A stretch of DNA of 64,000 bases, taken from contig NW_027437431.1 in assembly GCF_964204645.1 (NCBI RefSeq), positions 177,463-241,462 on the forward strand, written 5' to 3'. The translations under genes were made by a program, and so were the position numbers. This DNA is from Tubulanus polymorphus. Taxonomy: Eukaryota; Nemertea; Palaeonemertea; Tubulaniformes; Tubulanidae. Under the pieces are notes generated by a model. That model was not told the DNA's origin. It made no database searches and saw only the letters and a program-made list of their open reading frames with translations. Positions 10,594 through 64,000 of this stretch are shown one piece after another; within the stretch, counting starts at the first letter, position 1; each line of letters opens with the position of its first letter.

Positions 10594-10595
10594 CT

Positions 10596-17760: not shown

Positions 17761-17788
17761 TTCATAAGCATCAAGAGCATTATCTATG

Positions 17789-19556: not shown

Positions 19557-19569
19557 GTTACGGTCAAAC

Positions 19570-42416: not shown

Positions 42417-42437
42417 CACAGCCCGTGGTGGTCTGTG
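42417..42437 (+). repeat. Stem-loop at the left junction of the array
   Basis: CACAG (42417-42421) pairs with CTGTG (42433-42437) around the loop CCCGTGGTGGT. The first base shared by host-junction and internal copies is the first base of this stem. Internal copies occur every 3,406 bases, from 45823 on. Confidence 0.6.
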
Positions 42438-42686
42438 ACAGTGGAGGTTAGTTAAAGTTCGAGGCGTGTGACTAGTCGGGGGGAATAACATAGGCGGCTA
42501 CGCCGCGATAGTTAGTCGGCAAGGTCGGCTGCGCCTCCGGCGGTACAGATTACATCTGAGTGTATTAGTCTACCAACGGAAGCCCAAACCCTAAATAATA
42601 TTAGTCGGAAAAATCTGAGTTAGAGGGTCGCAACCGGTTCAAACAATTTAACATCTCATACAGGTGACTCGTACTTTTAGTATCAA
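42417..42686 (+). promoter_or_regulatory. Non-coding leader before the first capsid gene
   Basis: 270 bases identical to the second half of the internal non-coding regions. It contains the small hairpin GGCGGCTACGCCGC, a second GC-rich patch GGCTGCGCCTCCGGCGG and an AT-rich CTAAATAATATTAG (about 42591) that could serve as a TATA-like element. No promoter is proven. The first copy lacks the other half of the non-coding region. Confidence 0.5.
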
Positions 42687-43769
42687 ATGCCATCGTTGAA
42701 ACGGAGGCGAAACGGATTTACATTGCCCGGTTTACCACATTGCGGTCCATTCAACGATATATCCAGTTACAAAAGCGAAGGAATAGACGAAGTGTGCCGT
42801 ATTCACGACAAAGAGTACGGAGAACTGCAAGAGAAATACGGTAAATGGGCTCCGTACTTCCAGTACAATTCAGCGGATCAGACATTTTTGGACAGTGCTT
42901 CGGGTGTGAACGGTGTAGGTGCGAGACTAACGTCGAGTGTATTCAGAGCAAAACGGGCGTTATTTCCAACAATGGCGGAAGAACCGGCATTAAAAAGATC
43001 AAAGAGAACGGCGGAAACGGGGAGCGAAGAAGGGAACGCCCAACAAATGATGACTCACATGACGGAAAAGCCGTCACTACACTATAAGAGCGTGTTAATA
43101 CATAGAGGTTACCTAACGTTTACGAATTGGGATCCGGACCAGGCGTACGGAGCATTCGGAAGAAAAGCGAAGATTTACTGTTCGGGAATGAGAACGTTTA
43201 ACTTCGGATTAAAAGAAAGAGAAGGATGGAGAAGATTTCCAGCCAGCATGGATACCATAGGGATGTGGGATCAATTCAAAGTGACTTCGGGTAAAATAAC
43301 GTTATACCCCATAGCGAGCGAAAGCGCGGTAAGCTCTGATTCGAACGCGTTCCAAGATCCGATAGTATGGTTAAAGACGGCAGCCGATTGGGACTTGAAA
43401 GTGAAAGACTCGGCCGCCAATACTCACCAGGGATCGCCGTACGCCGATATAAATTTATTAACTCAAAAGCAAAGCTACAGGCAATACGAATTAGGTCGGG
43501 GATGCGTTAGCATGGGATTACCCATGTCGACCATAAGAACCGAAATACAAGACACGAGTGACCCGACAGACGTTACCAGATCGGTGAATATCGGGGATAA
43601 CTCGGCGTGGTTAGACGGAGCGTACCGCGATCATTGGCAATCAGCCGCGCTCATTATGCAAATGTTAGTGTACAACGATTCGATACACGCGGATTTAAAC
43701 ACGCCCCATACAGAAATTATCGTTCCAGCGGAAGTGGAGTTTACGATGATTCATAGAAACAGAGTATAA
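42687..43769 (+). CDS. Capsid-like protein with phospholipase A2 motif, copy 1
   Basis: 360 residues from the ATG at 42687. Basic K-R-R-R at 5-8, then a parvovirus-type phospholipase A2 region: H-C-G-P-F-N at 18-23 (the calcium loop, with Phe where the second Gly is usual), D-E-V-C-R-I-H-D-K-E-Y at 34-44 (His40-Asp41 catalytic pair) and A-D-Q-T-F at 63-67 (Asp64). In parvoviruses this domain helps virions leave endosomes. A second basic patch K-R-S-K-R is at 103-107. Residues about 120-360 are beta-rich and would hold the jelly-roll; the protein is short for a parvovirus VP1. An ATG at codon 96 (42972) has a better context (ACA ATG G) than the first and would give a 265-residue form lacking the lipase. 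The small gene starts one base after the stop. The fold of the second half is inference. Confidence 0.8.
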   Translation: MPSLKRRRNGFTLPGLPHCGPFNDISSYKSEGIDEVCRIHDKEYGELQEKYGKWAPYFQYNSADQTFLDSASGVNGVGARLTSSVFRAKRALFPTMAEEPALKRSKRTAETGSEEGNAQQMMTHMTEKPSLHYKSVLIHRGYLTFTNWDPDQAYGAFGRKAKIYCSGMRTFNFGLKEREGWRRFPASMDTIGMWDQFKVTSGKITLYPIASESAVSSDSNAFQDPIVWLKTAADWDLKVKDSAANTHQGSPYADINLLTQKQSYRQYELGRGCVSMGLPMSTIRTEIQDTSDPTDVTRSVNIGDNSAWLDGAYRDHWQSAALIMQMLVYNDSIHADLNTPHTEIIVPAEVEFTMIHRNRV

Positions 43770-43770
43770 T

Positions 43771-44079
43771 ATGATAATAACTTTCCTATTCTTGGCATCC
43801 GGTTTCCTACACGAGTACAAGTGGCACGTATATACTAAACGTATCATGAGTAGAACGCAACGATTCATGAAAATAAGAGACGAAGTGGCGAACGAGTGGG
43901 TCATCAAACACGACGTCAACGAAAATCGGGTACTAAGGGAACAACACATTACAGAAGTAGCGAAAAGGATATTCTACTACCGGGAAAAACAATGGGAACT
44001 AAGTCGAGAAACTGGTCGTTCACAACCGACAATCGAGCAGAAGTCTGCCTCGAAAGTCAAATCGGAACGTCAACAGTAA
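43771..44079 (+). CDS. Small protein with hydrophobic N-terminus, 102 aa, copy 1
   Basis: The ATG is one base after the capsid stop (TAATATG) with A at -3, so ribosome re-initiation or a short intron could feed it. Residues 2-13 are hydrophobic (I-I-T-F-L-F-L-A-S-G-F-L), perhaps a signal anchor or membrane-active helix. The rest is charged and predicted helical (R-D-E-V-A-N-E-W, I-T-E-V-A-K-R-I-F-Y-Y-R), with a Ser/Lys/Gln-rich tail. Its last 88 bases overlap the replication gene in another frame. I do not recognise a family. It could act as an accessory protein, or its message could continue into the replication gene by frameshifting or splicing. Confidence 0.6.
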   Translation: MIITFLFLASGFLHEYKWHVYTKRIMSRTQRFMKIRDEVANEWVIKHDVNENRVLREQHITEVAKRIFYYREKQWELSRETGRSQPTIEQKSASKVKSERQQ

Positions 44080-45395
44080 CCGTACACATAGGTCCGCAAG
44101 AAGATCCGGACGGTTACGCGCACGGAGTAATAATAACGTTAGCCAAAGGTACGCAACGACCGTTGAAACAGAGCGAAAACGCGATTAGACAACTGTTACA
44201 CTCGCTAGGCATTAGATTAGTTAACGACTACATCAAACCGACGGAAAAATTAGGCGCCTACATTCAATACATGTACAAAGAAGCCGACAAAATACCGGAA
44301 GAATTACGAGGTCACTTGGAGGTGAAAAACTCGAAAACGAACGACGACTTTTTCGGCCAAAAGATAAACGCGTTATACGCGGAATACCAACAAAGACCGG
44401 GACTAGCCGATTGGACGGCGAGAATAGTGAAGGAGTTCGGTTACAACGTACCCGAACTGAAAGTGAAAAGATCGTTTAAAAATTGGCCGGTAAGGGTAAA
44501 AGATATTACGAGAAACGCGGGTGACTTTGCGTTGAAAATGACGGACATAACAGAGCCGAAATTGACGCCGGAAATGGGAGTAGAAATTATAACGAAATGC
44601 CTGGATAACGTTCAATCGGCGATGTGGGATGGTAAACATATAAATAAACGTGACCTGCTGGTAATATTGGTGAACGCGGCGATCGAGGGAGGTACGAGTA
44701 AAATCAGAAACGCGCCTCATATAATATTTTACGGAGATGCCGGGTCTGGTAAATCGATGTTGGCTAAATTATTGTTCCCGGATTCGATTACGAGCCAAAT
44801 GCCGACGGATTCGGAAGGCGTAGGAGCGTGCGAGATGGGAGGAGGACAACGTATATTCAAAGTCGACGACGCCAGCGACGCTTTTTGGCACAACTCGGGG
44901 TTGTTGTCGATGATACTCGCGATGTACCAGTCCACCTGGGAGGCAAAAGTACATTCTAGTAAACAAAGTAACCCGCCGTGTATGACGGTAATTACGACGA
45001 ATTGTAAGAATCCGTTAGAGAAGTTCGCCTCTACAGTAGCTTTGGAAGCTGTGGAAAGGAGATTCTTGTCGGTGTATTTCAAAGGTAAAGCAGATTTGGG
45101 AAACGTAGTTTACGACATTACGCCGGGCGTATGCGAAGAAATATTAGAAATAATAGTTAACGAAATTAGACAAGGTAGATATCTGGACAACCAAGTCCAC
45201 TTGGACGACTGGGAAACGGATGATGACGTGGTGATACCGTTCGAAAAAGAAAGAAACTTCATCGAAGCGTACCACGTAGGTCACATGTCGGACGCGATGC
45301 ATCAGAATATGGAGGAAAGGTTAAAACGTAAACGTAAAGAAGAAGACGATACGAATGAAACTCTTAAGTTCGCTAAACGCGGGGAAATCCTGTAG
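43992..45395 (+). CDS. Replication protein with SF3 helicase, copy 1
   Basis: 467 residues from the ATG at 43992 (ACA ATG G); the frame is open further up to a GTG at 43896, but ATG is expected in an animal virus. The C-terminal half is a superfamily 3 helicase: Walker A G-D-A-G-S-G-K-S at 248-255 (Lys254), the acidic pair D292-D293 after F-K-V, and motif C V-I-T-T-N-C with Asn337. The N-terminal 110 residues align by pattern with the parvovirus NS1 nuclease: strands around T-V-T-V-H-I-G, then Y-A-H-G-V-I-I-T at 42-49 where an H-x-H pair is expected, and Y-I-Q-Y-M-Y-K at 90-96 where the Tyr/Lys motif would lie. The second His is Val here. The C-terminus is basic (K-R-K-R-K). The polyadenylation signal is 12 bases after the stop. 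Confidence 0.85.
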   Translation: MGTKSRNWSFTTDNRAEVCLESQIGTSTVTVHIGPQEDPDGYAHGVIITLAKGTQRPLKQSENAIRQLLHSLGIRLVNDYIKPTEKLGAYIQYMYKEADKIPEELRGHLEVKNSKTNDDFFGQKINALYAEYQQRPGLADWTARIVKEFGYNVPELKVKRSFKNWPVRVKDITRNAGDFALKMTDITEPKLTPEMGVEIITKCLDNVQSAMWDGKHINKRDLLVILVNAAIEGGTSKIRNAPHIIFYGDAGSGKSMLAKLLFPDSITSQMPTDSEGVGACEMGGGQRIFKVDDASDAFWHNSGLLSMILAMYQSTWEAKVHSSKQSNPPCMTVITTNCKNPLEKFASTVALEAVERRFLSVYFKGKADLGNVVYDITPGVCEEILEIIVNEIRQGRYLDNQVHLDDWETDDDVVIPFEKERNFIEAYHVGHMSDAMHQNMEERLKRKRKEEDDTNETLKFAKRGEIL

Positions 45396-45406
45396 TTGGC
45401 AATGTA

Positions 45407-45412
45407 AATAAA
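45407..45412 (+). terminator. Polyadenylation signal AATAAA
   Basis: AATAAA lies 12 bases after the replication gene's stop and would end transcripts of all three genes. Confidence 0.6.
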
Positions 45413-45452
45413 TCTATAAATAGAATTCTATAAATTTCTCAATTCGTTACTA

Positions 45453-45484
45453 CCAGTGGACCCGCAGACCCGCGGACCCACTGG
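45453..45484 (+). repeat. 32-base hairpin
   Basis: CCAGTGG and CCACTGG pair at the base, and CCGC with GCGG inside, with an AC/AC mismatch between them. Confidence 0.7.
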
Positions 45485-45566
45485 CTGTTCGTTTTTCATG
45501 GTCTACCCCCCCTTATATATATAATAAGGAAAGAGAAGGAGGGTCCGCGGGTCCGCGGGTCTGCGG
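45462..45566 (+). repeat. 18-bp inverted repeat around a TATA-like palindrome
   Basis: CCGCAGACCCGCGGACCC at 45462-45479 pairs exactly with 45549-45566. Three tandem GGGTCCGC-like repeats make up the right arm. The loop contains CCTTATATATATAATAAGG (45511-45529), a near-palindrome with a TATA core. Confidence 0.75.
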
Positions 45567-45650
45567 TATTCTCTAAACCGAGAATCGAAAAGTTAATGAA
45601 ACTAGGTCGGAAAGATAACAAATTATTATTCAATATATCCTAAAGCTTCT

Positions 45651-45700
45651 ACGAGGTTGGTCACGCGCTCGCTACGCTCGCCAGCGTGACACAACCTCGT
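45651..45700 (+). repeat. 50-base long-stem hairpin with a GCTCGC-rich apex
   Basis: ACGAGGTTG plus GTCACGC on the left pairs with GCGTGAC plus CAACCTCGT on the right: 16 pairs with one bulged A at 45691. The apex reads GCTCGCTACGCTCGCCA. Confidence 0.75.
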
Positions 45701-45752
45701 GGACGCTCCAAAGATAATGAGTATGTGCTTGATAATGAGTGAATTAATTGGG

Positions 45753-45796
45753 AACCCTATAGCGGGTAAAAGGTAAGAAGTAGAAATTATAGGGTT
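45753..45796 (+). repeat. 9-bp inverted repeat near the unit boundary
   Basis: AACCCTATA at 45753-45761 pairs with 45788-45796 around 26 bases. Confidence 0.6.
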
Positions 45797-46092
45797 AGGG
45801 GTTATCATTATACTCGGATGCCCACAGCCCGTGGTGGTCTGTGACAGTGGAGGTTAGTTAAAGTTCGAGGCGTGTGACTAGTCGGGGGGAATAACATAGG
45901 CGGCTACGCCGCGATAGTTAGTCGGCAAGGTCGGCTGCGCCTCCGGCGGTACAGATTACATCTGAGTGTATTAGTCTACCAACGGAAGCCCAAACCCTAA
46001 ATAATATTAGTCGGAAAAATCTGAGTTAGAGGGTCGCAACCGGTTCAAACAATTTAACATCTCATACAGGTGACTCGTACTTTTAGTATCAA

Positions 46093-47175
46093 ATGCCATC
46101 GTTGAAACGGAGGCGAAACGGATTTACATTGCCCGGTTTACCACATTGCGGTCCATTCAACGATATATCCAGTTACAAAAGCGAAGGAATAGACGAAGTG
46201 TGCCGTATTCACGACAAAGAGTACGGAGAACTGCAAGAGAAATACGGTAAATGGGCTCCGTACTTCCAGTACAATTCAGCGGATCAGACATTTTTGGACA
46301 GTGCTTCGGGTGTGAACGGTGTAGGTGCGAGACTAACGTCGAGTGTATTCAGAGCAAAACGGGCGTTATTTCCAACAATGGCGGAAGAACCGGCATTAAA
46401 AAGATCAAAGAGAACGGCGGAAACGGGGAGCGAAGAAGGGAACGCCCAACAAATGATGACTCACATGACGGAAAAGCCGTCACTACACTATAAGAGCGTG
46501 TTAATACATAGAGGTTACCTAACGTTTACGAATTGGGATCCGGACCAGGCGTACGGAGCATTCGGAAGAAAAGCGAAGATTTACTGTTCGGGAATGAGAA
46601 CGTTTAACTTCGGATTAAAAGAAAGAGAAGGATGGAGAAGATTTCCAGCCAGCATGGATACCATAGGGATGTGGGATCAATTCAAAGTGACTTCGGGTAA
46701 AATAACGTTATACCCCATAGCGAGCGAAAGCGCGGTAAGCTCTGATTCGAACGCGTTCCAAGATCCGATAGTATGGTTAAAGACGGCAGCCGATTGGGAC
46801 TTGAAAGTGAAAGACTCGGCCGCCAATACTCACCAGGGATCGCCGTACGCCGATATAAATTTATTAACTCAAAAGCAAAGCTACAGGCAATACGAATTAG
46901 GTCGGGGATGCGTTAGCATGGGATTACCCATGTCGACCATAAGAACCGAAATACAAGACACGAGTGACCCGACAGACGTTACCAGATCGGTGAATATCGG
47001 GGATAACTCGGCGTGGTTAGACGGAGCGTACCGCGATCATTGGCAATCAGCCGCGCTCATTATGCAAATGTTAGTGTACAACGATTCGATACACGCGGAT
47101 TTAAACACGCCCCATACAGAAATTATCGTTCCAGCGGAAGTGGAGTTTACGATGATTCATAGAAACAGAGTATAA
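46093..47175 (+). CDS. Capsid-like protein, copy 2
   Basis: Residue-for-residue identical to copy 1. Confidence 0.8.
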   Translation: MPSLKRRRNGFTLPGLPHCGPFNDISSYKSEGIDEVCRIHDKEYGELQEKYGKWAPYFQYNSADQTFLDSASGVNGVGARLTSSVFRAKRALFPTMAEEPALKRSKRTAETGSEEGNAQQMMTHMTEKPSLHYKSVLIHRGYLTFTNWDPDQAYGAFGRKAKIYCSGMRTFNFGLKEREGWRRFPASMDTIGMWDQFKVTSGKITLYPIASESAVSSDSNAFQDPIVWLKTAADWDLKVKDSAANTHQGSPYADINLLTQKQSYRQYELGRGCVSMGLPMSTIRTEIQDTSDPTDVTRSVNIGDNSAWLDGAYRDHWQSAALIMQMLVYNDSIHADLNTPHTEIIVPAEVEFTMIHRNRV

Positions 47176-47176
47176 T

Positions 47177-47485
47177 ATGATAATAACTTTCCTATTCTTG
47201 GCATCCGGTTTCCTACACGAGTACAAGTGGCACGTATATACTAAACGTATCATGAGTAGAACGCAACGATTCATGAAAATAAGAGACGAAGTGGCGAACG
47301 AGTGGGTCATCAAACACGACGTCAACGAAAATCGGGTACTAAGGGAACAACACATTACAGAAGTAGCGAAAAGGATATTCTACTACCGGGAAAAACAATG
47401 GGAACTAAGTCGAGAAACTGGTCGTTCACAACCGACAATCGAGCAGAAGTCTGCCTCGAAAGTCAAATCGGAACGTCAACAGTAA
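47177..47485 (+). CDS. Small hydrophobic-start protein, copy 2
   Basis: Identical to copy 1. Confidence 0.6.
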   Translation: MIITFLFLASGFLHEYKWHVYTKRIMSRTQRFMKIRDEVANEWVIKHDVNENRVLREQHITEVAKRIFYYREKQWELSRETGRSQPTIEQKSASKVKSERQQ

Positions 47486-48801
47486 CCGTACACATAGGTC
47501 CGCAAGAAGATCCGGACGGTTACGCGCACGGAGTAATAATAACGTTAGCCAAAGGTACGCAACGACCGTTGAAACAGAGCGAAAACGCGATTAGACAACT
47601 GTTACACTCGCTAGGCATTAGATTAGTTAACGACTACATCAAACCGACGGAAAAATTAGGCGCCTACATTCAATACATGTACAAAGAAGCCGACAAAATA
47701 CCGGAAGAATTACGAGGTCACTTGGAGGTGAAAAACTCGAAAACGAACGACGACTTTTTCGGCCAAAAGATAAACGCGTTATACGCGGAATACCAACAAA
47801 GACCGGGACTAGCCGATTGGACGGCGAGAATAGTGAAGGAGTTCGGTTACAACGTACCCGAACTGAAAGTGAAAAGATCGTTTAAAAATTGGCCGGTAAG
47901 GGTAAAAGATATTACGAGAAACGCGGGTGACTTTGCGTTGAAAATGACGGACATAACAGAGCCGAAATTGACGCCGGAAATGGGAGTAGAAATTATAACG
48001 AAATGCCTGGATAACGTTCAATCGGCGATGTGGGATGGTAAACATATAAATAAACGTGACCTGCTGGTAATATTGGTGAACGCGGCGATCGAGGGAGGTA
48101 CGAGTAAAATCAGAAACGCGCCTCATATAATATTTTACGGAGATGCCGGGTCTGGTAAATCGATGTTGGCTAAATTATTGTTCCCGGATTCGATTACGAG
48201 CCAAATGCCGACGGATTCGGAAGGCGTAGGAGCGTGCGAGATGGGAGGAGGACAACGTATATTCAAAGTCGACGACGCCAGCGACGCTTTTTGGCACAAC
48301 TCGGGGTTGTTGTCGATGATACTCGCGATGTACCAGTCCACCTGGGAGGCAAAAGTACATTCTAGTAAACAAAGTAACCCGCCGTGTATGACGGTAATTA
48401 CGACGAATTGTAAGAATCCGTTAGAGAAGTTCGCCTCTACAGTAGCTTTGGAAGCTGTGGAAAGGAGATTCTTGTCGGTGTATTTCAAAGGTAAAGCAGA
48501 TTTGGGAAACGTAGTTTACGACATTACGCCGGGCGTATGCGAAGAAATATTAGAAATAATAGTTAACGAAATTAGACAAGGTAGATATCTGGACAACCAA
48601 GTCCACTTGGACGACTGGGAAACGGATGATGACGTGGTGATACCGTTCGAAAAAGAAAGAAACTTCATCGAAGCGTACCACGTAGGTCACATGTCGGACG
48701 CGATGCATCAGAATATGGAGGAAAGGTTAAAACGTAAACGTAAAGAAGAAGACGATACGAATGAAACTCTTAAGTTCGCTAAACGCGGGGAAATCCTGTA
48801 G
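47398..48801 (+). CDS. SF3 helicase replication protein, copy 2
   Basis: Identical to copy 1. Confidence 0.85.
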   Translation: MGTKSRNWSFTTDNRAEVCLESQIGTSTVTVHIGPQEDPDGYAHGVIITLAKGTQRPLKQSENAIRQLLHSLGIRLVNDYIKPTEKLGAYIQYMYKEADKIPEELRGHLEVKNSKTNDDFFGQKINALYAEYQQRPGLADWTARIVKEFGYNVPELKVKRSFKNWPVRVKDITRNAGDFALKMTDITEPKLTPEMGVEIITKCLDNVQSAMWDGKHINKRDLLVILVNAAIEGGTSKIRNAPHIIFYGDAGSGKSMLAKLLFPDSITSQMPTDSEGVGACEMGGGQRIFKVDDASDAFWHNSGLLSMILAMYQSTWEAKVHSSKQSNPPCMTVITTNCKNPLEKFASTVALEAVERRFLSVYFKGKADLGNVVYDITPGVCEEILEIIVNEIRQGRYLDNQVHLDDWETDDDVVIPFEKERNFIEAYHVGHMSDAMHQNMEERLKRKRKEEDDTNETLKFAKRGEIL

Positions 48802-49498
48802 TTGGCAATGTAAATAAATCTATAAATAGAATTCTATAAATTTCTCAATTCGTTACTACCAGTGGACCCGCAGACCCGCGGACCCACTGGCTGTTCGTTT
48901 TTCATGGTCTACCCCCCCTTATATATATAATAAGGAAAGAGAAGGAGGGTCCGCGGGTCCGCGGGTCTGCGGTATTCTCTAAACCGAGAATCGAAAAGTT
49001 AATGAAACTAGGTCGGAAAGATAACAAATTATTATTCAATATATCCTAAAGCTTCTACGAGGTTGGTCACGCGCTCGCTACGCTCGCCAGCGTGACACAA
49101 CCTCGTGGACGCTCCAAAGATAATGAGTATGTGCTTGATAATGAGTGAATTAATTGGGAACCCTATAGCGGGTAAAAGGTAAGAAGTAGAAATTATAGGG
49201 TTAGGGGTTATCATTATACTCGGATGCCCACAGCCCGTGGTGGTCTGTGACAGTGGAGGTTAGTTAAAGTTCGAGGCGTGTGACTAGTCGGGGGGAATAA
49301 CATAGGCGGCTACGCCGCGATAGTTAGTCGGCAAGGTCGGCTGCGCCTCCGGCGGTACAGATTACATCTGAGTGTATTAGTCTACCAACGGAAGCCCAAA
49401 CCCTAAATAATATTAGTCGGAAAAATCTGAGTTAGAGGGTCGCAACCGGTTCAAACAATTTAACATCTCATACAGGTGACTCGTACTTTTAGTATCAA
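48802..49498 (+). promoter_or_regulatory. Non-coding region, units 2/3
   Basis: Same length and elements as 45396-46092; all hairpins are shifted by 3,406. The unit boundary is at 49229. Confidence 0.65.
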
Positions 49499-50581
49499 AT
49501 GCCATCGTTGAAACGGAGGCGAAACGGATTTACATTGCCCGGTTTACCACATTGCGGTCCATTCAACGATATATCCAGTTACAAAAGCGAAGGAATAGAC
49601 GAAGTGTGCCGTATTCACGACAAAGAGTACGGAGAACTGCAAGAGAAATACGGTAAATGGGCTCCGTACTTCCAGTACAATTCAGCGGATCAGACATTTT
49701 TGGACAGTGCTTCGGGTGTGAACGGTGTAGGTGCGAGACTAACGTCGAGTGTATTCAGAGCAAAACGGGCGTTATTTCCAACAATGGCGGAAGAACCGGC
49801 ATTAAAAAGATCAAAGAGAACGGCGGAAACGGGGAGCGAAGAAGGGAACGCCCAACAAATGATGACTCACATGACGGAAAAGCCGTCACTACACTATAAG
49901 AGCGTGTTAATACATAGAGGTTACCTAACGTTTACGAATTGGGATCCGGACCAGGCGTACGGAGCATTCGGAAGAAAAGCGAAGATTTACTGTTCGGGAA
50001 TGAGAACGTTTAACTTCGGATTAAAAGAAAGAGAAGGATGGAGAAGATTTCCAGCCAGCATGGATACCATAGGGATGTGGGATCAATTCAAAGTGACTTC
50101 GGGTAAAATAACGTTATACCCCATAGCGAGCGAAAGCGCGGTAAGCTCTGATTCGAACGCGTTCCAAGATCCGATAGTATGGTTAAAGACGGCAGCCGAT
50201 TGGGACTTGAAAGTGAAAGACTCGGCCGCCAATACTCACCAGGGATCGCCGTACGCCGATATAAATTTATTAACTCAAAAGCAAAGCTACAGGCAATACG
50301 AATTAGGTCGGGGATGCGTTAGCATGGGATTACCCATGTCGACCATAAGAACCGAAATACAAGACACGAGTGACCCGACAGACGTTACCAGATCGGTGAA
50401 TATCGGGGATAACTCGGCGTGGTTAGACGGAGCGTACCGCGATCATTGGCAATCAGCCGCGCTCATTATGCAAATGTTAGTGTACAACGATTCGATACAC
50501 GCGGATTTAAACACGCCCCATACAGAAATTATCGTTCCAGCGGAAGTGGAGTTTACGATGATTCATAGAAACAGAGTATAA
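49499..50581 (+). CDS. Capsid-like protein, copy 3
   Basis: Identical to copy 1. Confidence 0.8.
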   Translation: MPSLKRRRNGFTLPGLPHCGPFNDISSYKSEGIDEVCRIHDKEYGELQEKYGKWAPYFQYNSADQTFLDSASGVNGVGARLTSSVFRAKRALFPTMAEEPALKRSKRTAETGSEEGNAQQMMTHMTEKPSLHYKSVLIHRGYLTFTNWDPDQAYGAFGRKAKIYCSGMRTFNFGLKEREGWRRFPASMDTIGMWDQFKVTSGKITLYPIASESAVSSDSNAFQDPIVWLKTAADWDLKVKDSAANTHQGSPYADINLLTQKQSYRQYELGRGCVSMGLPMSTIRTEIQDTSDPTDVTRSVNIGDNSAWLDGAYRDHWQSAALIMQMLVYNDSIHADLNTPHTEIIVPAEVEFTMIHRNRV

Positions 50582-50582
50582 T

Positions 50583-52904: not shown

Positions 52905-53987
52905 ATGCCATCGTTGAAACGGAGGCGAAACGGATTTACATTGCCCGGTTTACCACATTGCGGTCCATTCAACGATATATCCAGTTACAAAAGCGAAGGA
53001 ATAGACGAAGTGTGCCGTATTCACGACAAAGAGTACGGAGAACTGCAAGAGAAATACGGTAAATGGGCTCCGTACTTCCAGTACAATTCAGCGGATCAGA
53101 CATTTTTGGACAGTGCTTCGGGTGTGAACGGTGTAGGTGCGAGACTAACGTCGAGTGTATTCAGAGCAAAACGGGCGTTATTTCCAACAATGGCGGAAGA
53201 ACCGGCATTAAAAAGATCAAAGAGAACGGCGGAAACGGGGAGCGAAGAAGGGAACGCCCAACAAATGATGACTCACATGACGGAAAAGCCGTCACTACAC
53301 TATAAGAGCGTGTTAATACATAGAGGTTACCTAACGTTTACGAATTGGGATCCGGACCAGGCGTACGGAGCATTCGGAAGAAAAGCGAAGATTTACTGTT
53401 CGGGAATGAGAACGTTTAACTTCGGATTAAAAGAAAGAGAAGGATGGAGAAGATTTCCAGCCAGCATGGATACCATAGGGATGTGGGATCAATTCAAAGT
53501 GACTTCGGGTAAAATAACGTTATACCCCATAGCGAGCGAAAGCGCGGTAAGCTCTGATTCGAACGCGTTCCAAGATCCGATAGTATGGTTAAAGACGGCA
53601 GCCGATTGGGACTTGAAAGTGAAAGACTCGGCCGCCAATACTCACCAGGGATCGCCGTACGCCGATATAAATTTATTAACTCAAAAGCAAAGCTACAGGC
53701 AATACGAATTAGGTCGGGGATGCGTTAGCATGGGATTACCCATGTCGACCATAAGAACCGAAATACAAGACACGAGTGACCCGACAGACGTTACCAGATC
53801 GGTGAATATCGGGGATAACTCGGCGTGGTTAGACGGAGCGTACCGCGATCATTGGCAATCAGCCGCGCTCATTATGCAAATGTTAGTGTACAACTATTCG
53901 ATACACGCGGATTTAAACACGCCCCATACAGAAATTATCGTTCCAGCGGAAGTGGAGTTTACGATGATTCATAGAAACAGAGTATAA
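52905..53987 (+). CDS. Capsid-like protein, copy 4, with one substitution
   Basis: The only copy that differs in protein: G-to-T at 53895 changes Asp331 to Tyr in the C-terminal part, between V-Y-N and S-I-H-A-D. The change serves as a marker that copies 3, 4 and 5 are separate sequences, or as a sequencing error. Confidence 0.8.
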   Translation: MPSLKRRRNGFTLPGLPHCGPFNDISSYKSEGIDEVCRIHDKEYGELQEKYGKWAPYFQYNSADQTFLDSASGVNGVGARLTSSVFRAKRALFPTMAEEPALKRSKRTAETGSEEGNAQQMMTHMTEKPSLHYKSVLIHRGYLTFTNWDPDQAYGAFGRKAKIYCSGMRTFNFGLKEREGWRRFPASMDTIGMWDQFKVTSGKITLYPIASESAVSSDSNAFQDPIVWLKTAADWDLKVKDSAANTHQGSPYADINLLTQKQSYRQYELGRGCVSMGLPMSTIRTEIQDTSDPTDVTRSVNIGDNSAWLDGAYRDHWQSAALIMQMLVYNYSIHADLNTPHTEIIVPAEVEFTMIHRNRV

Positions 53988-53988
53988 T

Positions 53989-55613: not shown

Positions 55614-56310
55614 TTGGCAATGTAAATAAATCTATAAATAGAATTCTATAAATTTCTCAATTCGTTACTACCAGTGGACCCGCAGACCCGCGGACCCACT
55701 GGCTGTTCGTTTTTCATGGTCTACCCCCCCTTATATATATAATAAGGAAAGAGAAGGAGGGTCCGCGGGTCCGCGGGTCTGCGGTATTCTCTAAACCGAG
55801 AATCGAAAAGTTAATGAAACTAGGTCGGAAAGATAACAAATTATTATTCAATATATCCTAAAGCTTCTACGAGGTTGGTCACGCGCTCGCTACGCTCGCC
55901 AGCGTGACACAACCTCGTGGACGCTCCAAAGATAATGAGTATGTGCTTGATAATGAGTGAATTAATTGGGAACCCTATAGCGGGTAAAAGGTAAGAAGTA
56001 GAAATTATAGGGTTAGGGGTTATCATTATACTCGGATGCCCACAGCCCGTGGTGGTCTGTGACAGTGGAGGTTAGTTAAAGTTCGAGGCGTGTGACTAGT
56101 CGGGGGGAATAACATAGGCGGCTACGCCGCGATAGTTAGTCGGCAAGGTCGGCTGCGCCTCCGGCGGTACAGATTACATCTGAGTGTATTAGTCTACCAA
56201 CGGAAGCCCAAACCCTAAATAATATTAGTCGGAAAAATCTGAGTTAGAGGGTCGCAACCGGTTCAAACAATTTAACATCTCATACAGGTGACTCGTACTT
56301 TTAGTATCAA
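55614..56310 (+). promoter_or_regulatory. Non-coding region, units 4/5
   Basis: Same as the first internal non-coding region. The unit boundary is at 56041. Confidence 0.65.
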
Positions 56311-57393
56311 ATGCCATCGTTGAAACGGAGGCGAAACGGATTTACATTGCCCGGTTTACCACATTGCGGTCCATTCAACGATATATCCAGTTACAAAAGC
56401 GAAGGAATAGACGAAGTGTGCCGTATTCACGACAAAGAGTACGGAGAACTGCAAGAGAAATACGGTAAATGGGCTCCGTACTTCCAGTACAATTCAGCGG
56501 ATCAGACATTTTTGGACAGTGCTTCGGGTGTGAACGGTGTAGGTGCGAGACTAACGTCGAGTGTATTCAGAGCAAAACGGGCGTTATTTCCAACAATGGC
56601 GGAAGAACCGGCATTAAAAAGATCAAAGAGAACGGCGGAAACGGGGAGCGAAGAAGGGAACGCCCAACAAATGATGACTCACATGACGGAAAAGCCGTCA
56701 CTACACTATAAGAGCGTGTTAATACATAGAGGTTACCTAACGTTTACGAATTGGGATCCGGACCAGGCGTACGGAGCATTCGGAAGAAAAGCGAAGATTT
56801 ACTGTTCGGGAATGAGAACGTTTAACTTCGGATTAAAAGAAAGAGAAGGATGGAGAAGATTTCCAGCCAGCATGGATACCATAGGGATGTGGGATCAATT
56901 CAAAGTGACTTCGGGTAAAATAACGTTATACCCCATAGCGAGCGAAAGCGCGGTAAGCTCTGATTCGAACGCGTTCCAAGATCCGATAGTATGGTTAAAG
57001 ACGGCAGCCGATTGGGACTTGAAAGTGAAAGACTCGGCCGCCAATACTCACCAGGGATCGCCGTACGCCGATATAAATTTATTAACTCAAAAGCAAAGCT
57101 ACAGGCAATACGAATTAGGTCGGGGATGCGTTAGCATGGGATTACCCATGTCGACCATAAGAACCGAAATACAAGACACGAGTGACCCGACAGACGTTAC
57201 CAGATCGGTGAATATCGGGGATAACTCGGCGTGGTTAGACGGAGCGTACCGCGATCATTGGCAATCAGCCGCGCTCATTATGCAAATGTTAGTGTACAAC
57301 GATTCGATACACGCGGATTTAAACACGCCCCATACAGAAATTATCGTTCCAGCGGAAGTGGAGTTTACGATGATTCATAGAAACAGAGTATAA
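56311..57393 (+). CDS. Capsid-like protein, copy 5
   Basis: Identical to copy 1. Confidence 0.8.
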   Translation: MPSLKRRRNGFTLPGLPHCGPFNDISSYKSEGIDEVCRIHDKEYGELQEKYGKWAPYFQYNSADQTFLDSASGVNGVGARLTSSVFRAKRALFPTMAEEPALKRSKRTAETGSEEGNAQQMMTHMTEKPSLHYKSVLIHRGYLTFTNWDPDQAYGAFGRKAKIYCSGMRTFNFGLKEREGWRRFPASMDTIGMWDQFKVTSGKITLYPIASESAVSSDSNAFQDPIVWLKTAADWDLKVKDSAANTHQGSPYADINLLTQKQSYRQYELGRGCVSMGLPMSTIRTEIQDTSDPTDVTRSVNIGDNSAWLDGAYRDHWQSAALIMQMLVYNDSIHADLNTPHTEIIVPAEVEFTMIHRNRV

Positions 57394-57394
57394 T

Positions 57395-57703
57395 ATGATA
57401 ATAACTTTCCTATTCTTGGCATCCGGTTTCCTACACGAGTACAAGTGGCACGTATATACTAAACGTATCATGAGTAGAACGCAACGATTCATGAAAATAA
57501 GAGACGAAGTGGCGAACGAGTGGGTCATCAAACACGACGTCAACGAAAATCGGGTACTAAGGGAACAACACATTACAGAAGTAGCGAAAAGGATATTCTA
57601 CTACCGGGAAAAACAATGGGAACTAAGTCGAGAAACTGGTCGTTCACAACCGACAATCGAGCAGAAGTCTGCCTCGAAAGTCAAATCGGAACGTCAACAG
57701 TAA
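57395..57703 (+). CDS. Small hydrophobic-start protein, copy 5
   Basis: Identical to copy 1. Confidence 0.6.
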   Translation: MIITFLFLASGFLHEYKWHVYTKRIMSRTQRFMKIRDEVANEWVIKHDVNENRVLREQHITEVAKRIFYYREKQWELSRETGRSQPTIEQKSASKVKSERQQ

Positions 57704-59019
57704 CCGTACACATAGGTCCGCAAGAAGATCCGGACGGTTACGCGCACGGAGTAATAATAACGTTAGCCAAAGGTACGCAACGACCGTTGAAACAGAGCGA
57801 AAACGCGATTAGACAACTGTTACACTCGCTAGGCATTAGATTAGTTAACGACTACATCAAACCGACGGAAAAATTAGGCGCCTACATTCAATACATGTAC
57901 AAAGAAGCCGACAAAATACCGGAAGAATTACGAGGTCACTTGGAGGTGAAAAACTCGAAAACGAACGACGACTTTTTCGGCCAAAAGATAAACGCGTTAT
58001 ACGCGGAATACCAACAAAGACCGGGACTAGCCGATTGGACGGCGAGAATAGTGAAGGAGTTCGGTTACAACGTACCCGAACTGAAAGTGAAAAGATCGTT
58101 TAAAAATTGGCCGGTAAGGGTAAAAGATATTACGAGAAACGCGGGTGACTTTGCGTTGAAAATGACGGACATAACAGAGCCGAAATTGACGCCGGAAATG
58201 GGAGTAGAAATTATAACGAAATGCCTGGATAACGTTCAATCGGCGATGTGGGATGGTAAACATATAAATAAACGTGACCTGCTGGTAATATTGGTGAACG
58301 CGGCGATCGAGGGAGGTACGAGTAAAATCAGAAACGCGCCTCATATAATATTTTACGGAGATGCCGGGTCTGGTAAATCGATGTTGGCTAAATTATTGTT
58401 CCCGGATTCGATTACGAGCCAAATGCCGACGGATTCGGAAGGCGTAGGAGCGTGCGAGATGGGAGGAGGACAACGTATATTCAAAGTCGACGACGCCAGC
58501 GACGCTTTTTGGCACAACTCGGGGTTGTTGTCGATGATACTCGCGATGTACCAGTCCACCTGGGAGGCAAAAGTACATTCTAGTAAACAAAGTAACCCGC
58601 CGTGTATGACGGTAATTACGACGAATTGTAAGAATCCGTTAGAGAAGTTCGCCTCTACAGTAGCTTTGGAAGCTGTGGAAAGGAGATTCTTGTCGGTGTA
58701 TTTCAAAGGTAAAGCAGATTTGGGAAACGTAGTTTACGACATTACGCCGGGCGTATGCGAAGAAATATTAGAAATAATAGTTAACGAAATTAGACAAGGT
58801 AGATATCTGGACAACCAAGTCCACTTGGACGACTGGGAAACGGATGATGACGTGGTGATACCGTTCGAAAAAGAAAGAAACTTCATCGAAGCGTACCACG
58901 TAGGTCACATGTCGGACGCGATGCATCAGAATATGGAGGAAAGGTTAAAACGTAAACGTAAAGAAGAAGACGATACGAATGAAACTCTTAAGTTCGCTAA
59001 ACGCGGGGAAATCCTGTAG
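57616..59019 (+). CDS. SF3 helicase replication protein, copy 5
   Basis: Identical to copy 1. Confidence 0.85.
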   Translation: MGTKSRNWSFTTDNRAEVCLESQIGTSTVTVHIGPQEDPDGYAHGVIITLAKGTQRPLKQSENAIRQLLHSLGIRLVNDYIKPTEKLGAYIQYMYKEADKIPEELRGHLEVKNSKTNDDFFGQKINALYAEYQQRPGLADWTARIVKEFGYNVPELKVKRSFKNWPVRVKDITRNAGDFALKMTDITEPKLTPEMGVEIITKCLDNVQSAMWDGKHINKRDLLVILVNAAIEGGTSKIRNAPHIIFYGDAGSGKSMLAKLLFPDSITSQMPTDSEGVGACEMGGGQRIFKVDDASDAFWHNSGLLSMILAMYQSTWEAKVHSSKQSNPPCMTVITTNCKNPLEKFASTVALEAVERRFLSVYFKGKADLGNVVYDITPGVCEEILEIIVNEIRQGRYLDNQVHLDDWETDDDVVIPFEKERNFIEAYHVGHMSDAMHQNMEERLKRKRKEEDDTNETLKFAKRGEIL

Positions 59020-59716
59020 TTGGCAATGTAAATAAATCTATAAATAGAATTCTATAAATTTCTCAATTCGTTACTACCAGTGGACCCGCAGACCCGCGGA
59101 CCCACTGGCTGTTCGTTTTTCATGGTCTACCCCCCCTTATATATATAATAAGGAAAGAGAAGGAGGGTCCGCGGGTCCGCGGGTCTGCGGTATTCTCTAA
59201 ACCGAGAATCGAAAAGTTAATGAAACTAGGTCGGAAAGATAACAAATTATTATTCAATATATCCTAAAGCTTCTACGAGGTTGGTCACGCGCTCGCTACG
59301 CTCGCCAGCGTGACACAACCTCGTGGACGCTCCAAAGATAATGAGTATGTGCTTGATAATGAGTGAATTAATTGGGAACCCTATAGCGGGTAAAAGGTAA
59401 GAAGTAGAAATTATAGGGTTAGGGGTTATCATTATACTCGGATGCCCACAGCCCGTGGTGGTCTGTGACAGTGGAGGTTAGTTAAAGTTCGAGGCGTGTG
59501 ACTAGTCGGGGGGAATAACATAGGCGGCTACGCCGCGATAGTTAGTCGGCAAGGTCGGCTGCGCCTCCGGCGGTACAGATTACATCTGAGTGTATTAGTC
59601 TACCAACGGAAGCCCAAACCCTAAATAATATTAGTCGGAAAAATCTGAGTTAGAGGGTCGCAACCGGTTCAAACAATTTAACATCTCATACAGGTGACTC
59701 GTACTTTTAGTATCAA
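59020..59716 (+). promoter_or_regulatory. Non-coding region, units 5/6
   Basis: Same as the first internal non-coding region. The unit boundary is at 59447. Confidence 0.65.
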
Positions 59717-60799
59717 ATGCCATCGTTGAAACGGAGGCGAAACGGATTTACATTGCCCGGTTTACCACATTGCGGTCCATTCAACGATATATCCAGTTAC
59801 AAAAGCGAAGGAATAGACGAAGTGTGCCGTATTCACGACAAAGAGTACGGAGAACTGCAAGAGAAATACGGTAAATGGGCTCCGTACTTCCAGTACAATT
59901 CAGCGGATCAGACATTTTTGGACAGTGCTTCGGGTGTGAACGGTGTAGGTGCGAGACTAACGTCGAGTGTATTCAGAGCAAAACGGGCGTTATTTCCAAC
60001 AATGGCGGAAGAACCGGCATTAAAAAGATCAAAGAGAACGGCGGAAACGGGGAGCGAAGAAGGGAACGCCCAACAAATGATGACTCACATGACGGAAAAG
60101 CCGTCACTACACTATAAGAGCGTGTTAATACATAGAGGTTACCTAACGTTTACGAATTGGGATCCGGACCAGGCGTACGGAGCATTCGGAAGAAAAGCGA
60201 AGATTTACTGTTCGGGAATGAGAACGTTTAACTTCGGATTAAAAGAAAGAGAAGGATGGAGAAGATTTCCAGCCAGCATGGATACCATAGGGATGTGGGA
60301 TCAATTCAAAGTGACTTCGGGTAAAATAACGTTATACCCCATAGCGAGCGAAAGCGCGGTAAGCTCTGATTCGAACGCGTTCCAAGATCCGATAGTATGG
60401 TTAAAGACGGCAGCCGATTGGGACTTGAAAGTGAAAGACTCGGCCGCCAATACTCACCAGGGATCGCCGTACGCCGATATAAATTTATTAACTCAAAAGC
60501 AAAGCTACAGGCAATACGAATTAGGTCGGGGATGCGTTAGCATGGGATTACCCATGTCGACCATAAGAACCGAAATACAAGACACGAGTGACCCGACAGA
60601 CGTTACCAGATCGGTGAATATCGGGGATAACTCGGCGTGGTTAGACGGAGCGTACCGCGATCATTGGCAATCAGCCGCGCTCATTATGCAAATGTTAGTG
60701 TACAACGATTCGATACACGCGGATTTAAACACGCCCCATACAGAAATTATCGTTCCAGCGGAAGTGGAGTTTACGATGATTCATAGAAACAGAGTATAA
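59717..60799 (+). CDS. Capsid-like protein, copy 6
   Basis: Identical to copy 1. Confidence 0.8.
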   Translation: MPSLKRRRNGFTLPGLPHCGPFNDISSYKSEGIDEVCRIHDKEYGELQEKYGKWAPYFQYNSADQTFLDSASGVNGVGARLTSSVFRAKRALFPTMAEEPALKRSKRTAETGSEEGNAQQMMTHMTEKPSLHYKSVLIHRGYLTFTNWDPDQAYGAFGRKAKIYCSGMRTFNFGLKEREGWRRFPASMDTIGMWDQFKVTSGKITLYPIASESAVSSDSNAFQDPIVWLKTAADWDLKVKDSAANTHQGSPYADINLLTQKQSYRQYELGRGCVSMGLPMSTIRTEIQDTSDPTDVTRSVNIGDNSAWLDGAYRDHWQSAALIMQMLVYNDSIHADLNTPHTEIIVPAEVEFTMIHRNRV

Positions 60800-60800
60800 T

Positions 60801-61109
60801 ATGATAATAACTTTCCTATTCTTGGCATCCGGTTTCCTACACGAGTACAAGTGGCACGTATATACTAAACGTATCATGAGTAGAACGCAACGATTCATGA
60901 AAATAAGAGACGAAGTGGCGAACGAGTGGGTCATCAAACACGACGTCAACGAAAATCGGGTACTAAGGGAACAACACATTACAGAAGTAGCGAAAAGGAT
61001 ATTCTACTACCGGGAAAAACAATGGGAACTAAGTCGAGAAACTGGTCGTTCACAACCGACAATCGAGCAGAAGTCTGCCTCGAAAGTCAAATCGGAACGT
61101 CAACAGTAA
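60801..61109 (+). CDS. Small hydrophobic-start protein, copy 6
   Basis: Identical to copy 1. Confidence 0.6.
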   Translation: MIITFLFLASGFLHEYKWHVYTKRIMSRTQRFMKIRDEVANEWVIKHDVNENRVLREQHITEVAKRIFYYREKQWELSRETGRSQPTIEQKSASKVKSERQQ

Positions 61110-62425
61110 CCGTACACATAGGTCCGCAAGAAGATCCGGACGGTTACGCGCACGGAGTAATAATAACGTTAGCCAAAGGTACGCAACGACCGTTGAAACA
61201 GAGCGAAAACGCGATTAGACAACTGTTACACTCGCTAGGCATTAGATTAGTTAACGACTACATCAAACCGACGGAAAAATTAGGCGCCTACATTCAATAC
61301 ATGTACAAAGAAGCCGACAAAATACCGGAAGAATTACGAGGTCACTTGGAGGTGAAAAACTCGAAAACGAACGACGACTTTTTCGGCCAAAAGATAAACG
61401 CGTTATACGCGGAATACCAACAAAGACCGGGACTAGCCGATTGGACGGCGAGAATAGTGAAGGAGTTCGGTTACAACGTACCCGAACTGAAAGTGAAAAG
61501 ATCGTTTAAAAATTGGCCGGTAAGGGTAAAAGATATTACGAGAAACGCGGGTGACTTTGCGTTGAAAATGACGGACATAACAGAGCCGAAATTGACGCCG
61601 GAAATGGGAGTAGAAATTATAACGAAATGCCTGGATAACGTTCAATCGGCGATGTGGGATGGTAAACATATAAATAAACGTGACCTGCTGGTAATATTGG
61701 TGAACGCGGCGATCGAGGGAGGTACGAGTAAAATCAGAAACGCGCCTCATATAATATTTTACGGAGATGCCGGGTCTGGTAAATCGATGTTGGCTAAATT
61801 ATTGTTCCCGGATTCGATTACGAGCCAAATGCCGACGGATTCGGAAGGCGTAGGAGCGTGCGAGATGGGAGGAGGACAACGTATATTCAAAGTCGACGAC
61901 GCCAGCGACGCTTTTTGGCACAACTCGGGGTTGTTGTCGATGATACTCGCGATGTACCAGTCCACCTGGGAGGCAAAAGTACATTCTAGTAAACAAAGTA
62001 ACCCGCCGTGTATGACGGTAATTACGACGAATTGTAAGAATCCGTTAGAGAAGTTCGCCTCTACAGTAGCTTTGGAAGCTGTGGAAAGGAGATTCTTGTC
62101 GGTGTATTTCAAAGGTAAAGCAGATTTGGGAAACGTAGTTTACGACATTACGCCGGGCGTATGCGAAGAAATATTAGAAATAATAGTTAACGAAATTAGA
62201 CAAGGTAGATATCTGGACAACCAAGTCCACTTGGACGACTGGGAAACGGATGATGACGTGGTGATACCGTTCGAAAAAGAAAGAAACTTCATCGAAGCGT
62301 ACCACGTAGGTCACATGTCGGACGCGATGCATCAGAATATGGAGGAAAGGTTAAAACGTAAACGTAAAGAAGAAGACGATACGAATGAAACTCTTAAGTT
62401 CGCTAAACGCGGGGAAATCCTGTAG
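61022..62425 (+). CDS. SF3 helicase replication protein, copy 6
   Basis: Identical to copy 1. Confidence 0.85.
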   Translation: MGTKSRNWSFTTDNRAEVCLESQIGTSTVTVHIGPQEDPDGYAHGVIITLAKGTQRPLKQSENAIRQLLHSLGIRLVNDYIKPTEKLGAYIQYMYKEADKIPEELRGHLEVKNSKTNDDFFGQKINALYAEYQQRPGLADWTARIVKEFGYNVPELKVKRSFKNWPVRVKDITRNAGDFALKMTDITEPKLTPEMGVEIITKCLDNVQSAMWDGKHINKRDLLVILVNAAIEGGTSKIRNAPHIIFYGDAGSGKSMLAKLLFPDSITSQMPTDSEGVGACEMGGGQRIFKVDDASDAFWHNSGLLSMILAMYQSTWEAKVHSSKQSNPPCMTVITTNCKNPLEKFASTVALEAVERRFLSVYFKGKADLGNVVYDITPGVCEEILEIIVNEIRQGRYLDNQVHLDDWETDDDVVIPFEKERNFIEAYHVGHMSDAMHQNMEERLKRKRKEEDDTNETLKFAKRGEIL

Positions 62426-63122
62426 TTGGCAATGTAAATAAATCTATAAATAGAATTCTATAAATTTCTCAATTCGTTACTACCAGTGGACCCGCAGACC
62501 CGCGGACCCACTGGCTGTTCGTTTTTCATGGTCTACCCCCCCTTATATATATAATAAGGAAAGAGAAGGAGGGTCCGCGGGTCCGCGGGTCTGCGGTATT
62601 CTCTAAACCGAGAATCGAAAAGTTAATGAAACTAGGTCGGAAAGATAACAAATTATTATTCAATATATCCTAAAGCTTCTACGAGGTTGGTCACGCGCTC
62701 GCTACGCTCGCCAGCGTGACACAACCTCGTGGACGCTCCAAAGATAATGAGTATGTGCTTGATAATGAGTGAATTAATTGGGAACCCTATAGCGGGTAAA
62801 AGGTAAGAAGTAGAAATTATAGGGTTAGGGGTTATCATTATACTCGGATGCCCACAGCCCGTGGTGGTCTGTGACAGTGGAGGTTAGTTAAAGTTCGAGG
62901 CGTGTGACTAGTCGGGGGGAATAACATAGGCGGCTACGCCGCGATAGTTAGTCGGCAAGGTCGGCTGCGCCTCCGGCGGTACAGATTACATCTGAGTGTA
63001 TTAGTCTACCAACGGAAGCCCAAACCCTAAATAATATTAGTCGGAAAAATCTGAGTTAGAGGGTCGCAACCGGTTCAAACAATTTAACATCTCATACAGG
63101 TGACTCGTACTTTTAGTATCAA
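62426..63122 (+). promoter_or_regulatory. Non-coding region, units 6/7
   Basis: Same as the first internal non-coding region. The unit boundary is at 62853. Confidence 0.65.
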
Positions 63123-64000
63123 ATGCCATCGTTGAAACGGAGGCGAAACGGATTTACATTGCCCGGTTTACCACATTGCGGTCCATTCAACGATATATCC
63201 AGTTACAAAAGCGAAGGAATAGACGAAGTGTGCCGTATTCACGACAAAGAGTACGGAGAACTGCAAGAGAAATACGGTAAATGGGCTCCGTACTTCCAGT
63301 ACAATTCAGCGGATCAGACATTTTTGGACAGTGCTTCGGGTGTGAACGGTGTAGGTGCGAGACTAACGTCGAGTGTATTCAGAGCAAAACGGGCGTTATT
63401 TCCAACAATGGCGGAAGAACCGGCATTAAAAAGATCAAAGAGAACGGCGGAAACGGGGAGCGAAGAAGGGAACGCCCAACAAATGATGACTCACATGACG
63501 GAAAAGCCGTCACTACACTATAAGAGCGTGTTAATACATAGAGGTTACCTAACGTTTACGAATTGGGATCCGGACCAGGCGTACGGAGCATTCGGAAGAA
63601 AAGCGAAGATTTACTGTTCGGGAATGAGAACGTTTAACTTCGGATTAAAAGAAAGAGAAGGATGGAGAAGATTTCCAGCCAGCATGGATACCATAGGGAT
63701 GTGGGATCAATTCAAAGTGACTTCGGGTAAAATAACGTTATACCCCATAGCGAGCGAAAGCGCGGTAAGCTCTGATTCGAACGCGTTCCAAGATCCGATA
63801 GTATGGTTAAAGACGGCAGCCGATTGGGACTTGAAAGTGAAAGACTCGGCCGCCAATACTCACCAGGGATCGCCGTACGCCGATATAAATTTATTAACTC
63901 AAAAGCAAAGCTACAGGCAATACGAATTAGGTCGGGGATGCGTTAGCATGGGATTACCCATGTCGACCATAAGAACCGAAATACAAGACACGAGTGACCC
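63123..64000 (+). CDS. Capsid-like protein, copy 7, cut by the window end
   Basis: The first 292 codons of a seventh copy, matching copy 1 as far as the window goes. The array therefore continues to the right. Confidence 0.8.
   Translation, partial: MPSLKRRRNGFTLPGLPHCGPFNDISSYKSEGIDEVCRIHDKEYGELQEKYGKWAPYFQYNSADQTFLDSASGVNGVGARLTSSVFRAKRALFPTMAEEPALKRSKRTAETGSEEGNAQQMMTHMTEKPSLHYKSVLIHRGYLTFTNWDPDQAYGAFGRKAKIYCSGMRTFNFGLKEREGWRRFPASMDTIGMWDQFKVTSGKITLYPIASESAVSSDSNAFQDPIVWLKTAADWDLKVKDSAANTHQGSPYADINLLTQKQSYRQYELGRGCVSMGLPMSTIRTEIQDTSD

Follow-up and report, generated by a model that had tools for sequence, protein, structure and literature searches.

A near-identical array of virus-like units joined to host DNA in the Tubulanus polymorphus assembly: probably an endogenized concatemer of a small virus with a PLA2-type capsid protein

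What is a run of near-identical virus-like genes doing at the end of an animal contig, and does it belong to a virus, to the host or to the assembly process? The question is raised by a stretch of 64,000 nucleotides (nt) of the nemertean Tubulanus polymorphus, called here the window, which spans positions 177463-241462 of contig NW_027437431.1 (hereafter C14; the whole assembly comprises 267,791,593 bases in 77 contigs). From window position 42417 onwards the DNA consists of a 3,406-nt unit repeated head to tail, each unit carrying three same-strand genes in the order VP (capsid-like protein), ORF3 and NS (putative replication protein). An earlier note, made from the sequence alone, had described a parvovirus-like genome amplified in an animal genome. 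We think that the array is probably an endogenized head-to-tail concatemer of a small, 3.4-kb animal virus of the single-stranded DNA (ssDNA) type, co-amplified with host DNA. Positions below are those of the window unless a contig is named, and features of the array lie on the plus strand.

Compared with itself at a lag of 3,406, the window shows no difference between 42417 and its right edge, bar one substitution at 53895; this lone difference, in one unit, shows in the comparison at both 50489 and 53895. Left of the array, between 36001 and 42000, the same comparison gives identities of 0.23-0.29 in 500-base blocks, and the breakpoint at 42417 is exact. This block (block 2, labelled A2; 42417-64000) holds six full units and part of a seventh, as the earlier note had it; the incomplete unit measures 1,148 nt. 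The right edge of the window is the end of C14 (241,462 bases) and falls inside the array, so that the true end of the array is unseen. Beyond the window the array proved larger than had been claimed: C14 holds 46 complete units, 40 of them in block 1 (C14:38390-174430; 136,041 nt, or 39.94 units) and six in block 2, which begins at C14:219879. Six-frame searches of the whole assembly returned 51 matches to NS (46 complete on C14 and five elsewhere) and 53 to VP (46 complete and one cut on C14, six elsewhere). The earlier observation that all genes are open holds for VP and NS in six of six full units of the window, where the right edge falls within the seventh VP; across C14, 45 of 46 full-length VP frames and all 46 NS frames are free of stops. 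A common top score is shared by 44 of 46 NS copies and by 38 of the 46 full VP copies. The other eight VP copies score lower and carry amino-acid changes, one of them a TGA stop, which look like drift after insertion.

The two blocks are separated by a host segment, H (C14:174431-219878; 45,448 nt), most of which forms positions 1-42416 of the window. H is 99.963% identical to positions 17666838-17712286 of C2, a chromosome-sized contig of 31.9 Mb. There, at a locus located by searches with 1.6-kb flanking pieces, the same segment stands without the array, and the sequence continues across both junctions without viral DNA. A second copy of H precedes block 1 (C14:1-38389); aligned with the corresponding stretch of H, it reaches 99.964% identity (13 mismatches, one gap). 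C14 as assembled therefore repeats host-array-host-array with a period of 181,489, and the array ends join both ends of one 45.4-kb segment. The host/array junction in the window (42416/42417) lies inside a gag frame, which we take to be BEL/Pao-like and which reads through in C2, where the array is absent; no Pfam match was found for the gag family at this junction. Each junction has 2 nt of microhomology that could belong to either side, 'CA' on the left and 'AA' on the right. With defined host breakpoints and an uninterrupted allele, the array is an endogenous viral element at assembly level, and its placing in an animal genome by the earlier note agrees with this linkage and with the retrotransposons and glutamate-receptor-like frames of the flank.

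Alignment of the three host copies over 38.4 kb yielded 19 variable sites: nine private to H (one of them a 1-base gap), five private to the other C14 copy and five at which both C14 copies agree against C2. Outside the shared 38.4 kb, H differs from C2 at three more positions. The two C14 copies thus differ from each other at 14 sites, and because of these differences and of the five that they have in common against C2, they look like two real sister copies rather than one copy written twice. A reading of C14 as a circular contig written once and a bit was rejected on the same differences.

Variants among the compared units were few. The comparison covered 15 loci and the window rather than all 46 units; some stretches were picked for paired score drops in the NS and VP searches, and in two comparisons a change of length close to unit position 45513 cut the alignment short (L037 after 4,045 of 7,000 bases, L003 after 3,117 of 4,497). 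In the stretches read, three variants, at unit positions 43077, 45091 and 42700, are each confined to two adjacent units, and those at 43610, 45257 and 43677 were seen in single units. Such sharing between neighbours is what local duplication or unequal exchange would produce, had it enlarged the array once the mutations had arisen. Near C14:73929-77336 one unit measures 3,407 nt, with a changed stretch of C-run and TA-repeat at about unit position 45513.

The first gene of the unit encodes VP (360 amino acids (aa); first copy at 42687-43769, recurring every 3,406 nt). Its residues 10-89 form a phospholipase A2 (PLA2) domain that matches Pfam Phospholip_A2_4 (PF08398) at E=2.4e-11, and a profile of VP and its relatives (profile A2) matched parvovirus VP1 chains of the PDB, the best match covering residues 1-108 (E=1.3e-13); the parvovirus-type PLA2 motif reported earlier in a capsid-like protein is thereby confirmed. 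The word HDKEY (42804-42818; residues 40-44) is a PLA2-type catalytic motif. In parvoviruses PLA2 serves entry, and by analogy its presence in VP suggests a parvovirus-like entry. Most Parvoviridae have a VP1 unique region with PLA2 (PMC5013282), and a PLA2 of this type is found in VP. The C-terminal part of VP, about 255 aa, had no match in the domain and PDB comparisons. The profile and structure checks that the earlier note proposed for the 360- and 467-residue proteins thus gave a PLA2 match for VP, weak P-loop matches for NS and no confident fold for either, since single-sequence AlphaFold2 models reached a mean predicted local distance difference test (pLDDT) score of only 32.8 for VP and 33.4 for NS. 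The capsid core of VP resembles, by eye only, that of circular Rep-encoding ssDNA (CRESS) viruses, and we do not use this likeness as evidence.

Two genes per unit had been recognized previously; VP and NS stand, and a third, ORF3, had been missed. ORF3 (43771-44079; 102 aa) starts one base past the VP stop, has a hydrophobic stretch in its first 14 residues and extends, in a different frame, beyond the NS start. Against its counterpart in an older relative of the array on contig C11, it shows 61% aa identity over the 70 codons outside the NS overlap, with non-synonymous divergence (dN) 0.29 and synonymous divergence (dS) 1.22, a ratio of about 0.24. NS comprises 467 aa from the ATG at 43992 (43992-45395) and lies within a 499-aa GTG frame that begins at 43896. 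The ATG start is supported by the C11 relative, in which a TAG stands upstream and the sequence can be aligned from this Met onwards. The idea that ORF3 is an N-terminal exon of NS was rejected, as NS aligns to C11 from its own ATG and ORF3 is intact in C11, an argument that does not cover a spliced form.

By eye, NS contains a Walker A motif, GDAGSGKS (44733-44756; residues 248-255), followed by VDDA (291-294), ITTN (334-337) and RR (356-357). These words resemble those of superfamily 3 (SF3) helicases and are the same or similar in the relatives on C11 and C8; FTTDN, YAHG and YMYK are also present by eye. Family searches, run to an E limit of 10 with filters that drop most matches above 0.1, gave only weak P-loop matches for the array NS itself. 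Matches to SF3-type families came only from the C11 and C8 relatives and were weak, all of them short of the curated cut-offs; those of C11 were DUF5906 (0.0035), RNA_helicase (0.043) and VapE-like (0.054). Parvo_NS1 and Viral_Rep were absent among the matches listed for NS and its relatives. From these motifs and weak SF3 matches we regard NS as a putative replication protein.

Fragments of NS or VP lie on C11, C8, C2 and C5, which suggests that this lineage integrates in this host, and weakly on C10. The C11 copy is a single near-complete element in the same VP-ORF3-NS order. Its VP pieces are 58% and 47% identical to the array protein and its NS pieces 59% and 60%; VP and NS have one frame break each, and the ORF3 frame is intact at 117 aa. 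Over five pieces compared with the array, dN is 0.29-0.52 and dS runs from 1.2 to saturated, so that VP, ORF3 and NS were all under purifying selection between the two elements. At either end of the C11 element stand direct repeats of about 70 nt in all, 3,195-3,196 nt apart, and this terminal repeat lies 315 nt from the VP start and 316 nt from the NS end. Since the element is longer than one unit and its ends are redundant, it suggests a circular or head-to-tail (concatemeric) parent of about 3.2 kb; this is one locus, and a larger array, once collapsed, would leave the same picture. At another locus, L014 (C2:9506001-9515900), two fragments of the same NS region lie about 1 kb apart, hinting at an old tandem or double insertion.

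All of the long non-coding DNA of the unit sits upstream of VP, in the 697 nt between NS and the next VP (45396-46092). Two strong palindromes about 80 nt apart occur there. The first is GC-rich (45450-45570; arms 45459-45479 and 45541-45561) and folds as DNA with a z-score of -5.7; the second (45640-45712; arms 45644-45659 and 45692-45707) has a z-score of -5.2, and for neither was any of 200 shuffles as good. Two other intergenic stretches fold no better than shuffles (z -0.47 and -0.55). A motif common to the array and C11 lies upstream of VP (45924-45946), is found twice in C11, 31 nt apart, and is a candidate iteron or origin. Block 1 runs from unit position 42417 to 45622, which leaves 200 nt, palindrome 2 included, absent between its end and its start; both of its breakpoints are intergenic, in 20% of the unit, for which the chance is 0.04. 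VP and NS are rich in A on their coding strand, with an AT skew of 0.23 and 0.25 against 0.01 in the host flank, and rich in CpG (1.49 for VP and 1.75 for NS; 0.84 overall in the host flank, 0.39-1.20 in its 2-kb blocks).

To which family might such a virus belong? Parvoviridae genomes have NS on the left and VP on the right (PMC9896142), and this is not the order of the array and C11, provided that the genome ended within the long intergenic region. The Parvovirinae genomes described in the same paper carry the NS1 words HxH (nuclease) and EE (Walker B); in their place we find, by eye and in comparison with that one paper's Parvovirinae rather than with all subfamilies, Y/F-A-H-G in C14 and C11 and VDDA in C14, C11 and C8. 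Of the NS1-like SF3 helicase in the earlier note, the SF3-like words are supported, by eye, with weak family matches in the relatives. Small size alone is a weak argument against a parvovirus, as two atypical parvovirus genomes of 3.6 kb have been reported (PMC9896142). What survives of the proposed small parvovirus-like agent is its viral origin and unusually small unit; 'parvovirus genome' is unsupported, given the gene order, the NS words and the circular or head-to-tail hint from C11. Measured against a linear, hairpin-ended genome of 4-6 kb, the units are 3,406 and about 3,196 nt long, with two palindromes in C14 and none in the C11 stretches folded; measured against a circular CRESS genome, the head-to-tail units and the terminal redundancy of C11 fit.

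CRESS DNA viruses carry a nonanucleotide in the loop of a stem, and their Rep proteins combine FTxxN, HUH/HUQ and YxxK motifs, for which FTTDN, YAHG and YMYK of NS are candidates by eye, with an SF3 helicase. In the unit, a search for such a stem-loop found one TAATATTAG word, at 46002, whose surroundings fold like shuffles (z 0.21 and -0.56). On this reading of the sequence we would file the element neither as a parvovirus, since gene order and two NS words, the latter judged by eye, appear to fail, nor as a CRESS virus, since we saw neither a nonanucleotide stem-loop nor a match to a Rep profile.

In the virus at the root of the array, a single strand would have carried the genes for a capsid protein bearing PLA2, for a small protein that begins with hydrophobic residues and for a helicase-type replication protein. 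A circular form, replicated in a rolling-circle-like manner, may have given rise to a concatemer, which end joining could then have linked to the C2 locus, with microhomology of about 2 nt and with breakpoints in the viral intergenic region; virus and 45.4-kb host segment would afterwards have been amplified together into the host-array-host-array layout. The likeliest present role of the array is that of a recent genomic passenger drifting after insertion. That it also serves as a source of antiviral small RNAs is possible only as speculation.

Several points weigh against this account. Copy number, linkage and the placement of C14 all come from one assembly, in which C14 is unplaced and ends in the array. 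The intergenic AT skew is small (0.07). Searches of the protein collection, IMG/VR, GTDB contigs and phage records turned up no NS homologue from beyond this genome. More precisely, the protein collection held no homologue of NS or VP at E<=1e-3, and alignment A1 found none at E<=0.01 (among the 7,999 candidates with the most words in common, which were scored); IMG/VR and the phage records gave none, nor did GTDB contigs, which were searched for NS only. When IMG/VR was scanned with two motifs, 3 and 33 stretches came back, from contigs of at least 4 kb. Such absence is weak evidence, as these collections seem poor in small eukaryotic ssDNA viruses. In the literature no animal array of this kind was found among titles and abstract openings, with most subscription papers outside reach. 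Finally, a linear genome would be favoured if the palindromes were hairpin telomeres like those of parvoviruses, with right and left telomeres fused in the head-to-tail joints. Both palindromes are significant and the right end of block 1, at 45622, falls between them; even so, no strong palindrome was seen in the four C11 intergenic stretches folded (less than its whole length), the ends of C11 are redundant, and hairpin replication is not known to yield mainly head-to-tail joints. We regard a linear genome as unlikely, while taking it seriously.

The layout of C14 could itself be explained otherwise. A period of 181,489 and array ends that join two ends of one segment are what would be expected of an extrachromosomal virus-host circle or amplicon of about 181.5 kb (45.4 kb of host and 136 kb of array), somatic or germline, as in concatemers of human papillomavirus (HPV). 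The 14 differences between the host copies and their five common differences from C2 make a single circle unlikely. This objection is weakened in that five of the nine private changes of one host copy lie within 114 bp and could be one event, and a multimeric circle is compatible with the data; overall we judge an extrachromosomal form of C14 improbable. The distinct substitutions of the host copies argue also against an assembly artefact, in which abundant free-virus reads were joined to a host contig or a graph loop was walked round, as an unplaced contig ending in near-identical units beside a host segment nearly identical to C2 might suggest. The variants confined to pairs of adjacent units, the joining of the array to two ends of one host segment and the older relatives on C11, C8, C2 and C5 point the same way, and we consider an artefact very improbable. 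As for the domesticated amplified element offered in the earlier note, in which the host would keep the array for use of the capsid, the replication protein or small RNAs, we found no positive evidence. Its one attraction, the near-complete lack of stops in VP and NS, is expected anyway with so little divergence so far, and the eight changed VP copies, one with a stop, are drift-like; domestication has hardly any claim on our belief.

An endogenized concatemer also stands apart from the systems that it most resembles. Like Parvoviridae (densoviruses and hamaparvoviruses), it has a PLA2 N-terminus matching PDB VP1s over about 105 residues, an SF3-like NS and compact coding; unlike them, it has a 3.4-kb unit, VP upstream of NS on one strand and a VP of only 360 aa, VDDA and Y/F-A-H replace the EE and HxH of Parvovirinae (PMC9896142), and C11 suggests a circular or concatemeric parent. 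In the endogenous geminiviral repeats of yam and Nicotiana, too, a rolling-circle ssDNA virus is present in the nuclear genome as direct repeats, with yam arrays inferred to exceed 23 kb (PMC5014472). They belong to plants, however, with a truncated or degenerate Rep in Nicotiana and no detected coat-protein gene in the yam sequences (PMC5014472), whereas the array on C14 has open genes and is repeated together with host DNA. In Penaeus monodon, the element of infectious hypodermal and haematopoietic necrosis virus (IHHNV) is also repeated parvovirus DNA in an invertebrate flanked by repeated host sequence, but it consists of jumbled inverted fragments (PMC8982415) rather than uniform head-to-tail complete units. 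HPV heterocateny, in which a virus concatemer alternates with a host segment, concerns tumours and a papillomavirus (PMC13386876), not a genome assembly and a different virus.

Elsewhere in the window, the host flank is rich in repeats. Two 1.8-kb inverted arms (120-1908 and 2963-4751; 99.7% identical), both containing an array of 24-bp tandem repeats and a copy of the same 188/233-aa frame, lie in an AT-rich setting (22-24% GC over 1-4000) and look like a recent inverted duplication of a mobile element. A LINE-like pair follows at 8590-12470, an ORF with zinc-knuckle and GDSL-esterase parts and then an endonuclease-reverse transcriptase ORF. PIF1-helicase and DUF6570 frames on the minus strand (16909-21392) form, by our reading, a Helitron-like remnant. 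A minus-strand frame at 34317-34724 with a NO VEIN C-terminal domain is a possible piece of a host gene, and satellite-like 154-bp tandem repeats occupy 35232-36822, about 6 kb ahead of the array. Two of the glutamate-receptor frames are NMDA-like by eye.

To our knowledge, endogenous parvovirus-like sequences are mostly single or rearranged fragments. A jumbled case is the IHHNV element (PMC8982415). In the near-identical array of at least 46 units, the uninterrupted locus and the decayed relatives of T. polymorphus, the steps of endogenization, namely integration, amplification with host DNA, drift and decay, lie side by side. We would suggest, tentatively and at somewhat less than even confidence, that they record an undescribed lineage of small ssDNA viruses with a parvovirus-type PLA2 entry domain, a short capsid protein, a CRESS-like replication protein and a circular genome, which entered chromosomes repeatedly and once formed a heritable concatemer of virus and host DNA, at least 46 units long and with nearly all genes open. 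That a capsid gene with PLA2 has as its neighbour a replication gene lacking clear signatures of parvoviruses, in a perhaps circular genome, bears on the relationship between parvoviruses and circular ssDNA viruses. The parvo-like hybrid viruses (NIH-CQV/PHV) have small genomes that stand between those of parvoviruses and circoviruses. One paper groups 31 bird contigs with them (PMC9896142), and PHV itself has been judged mostly reagent-derived (PMC13141889). Unlike PHV, the array is joined to host DNA and has old relatives on large contigs; its likeness to PHV, by description, is a lead only. Should the parvo-like hybrids prove related, the group would gain a real host, a point so far clouded by reagent contamination.

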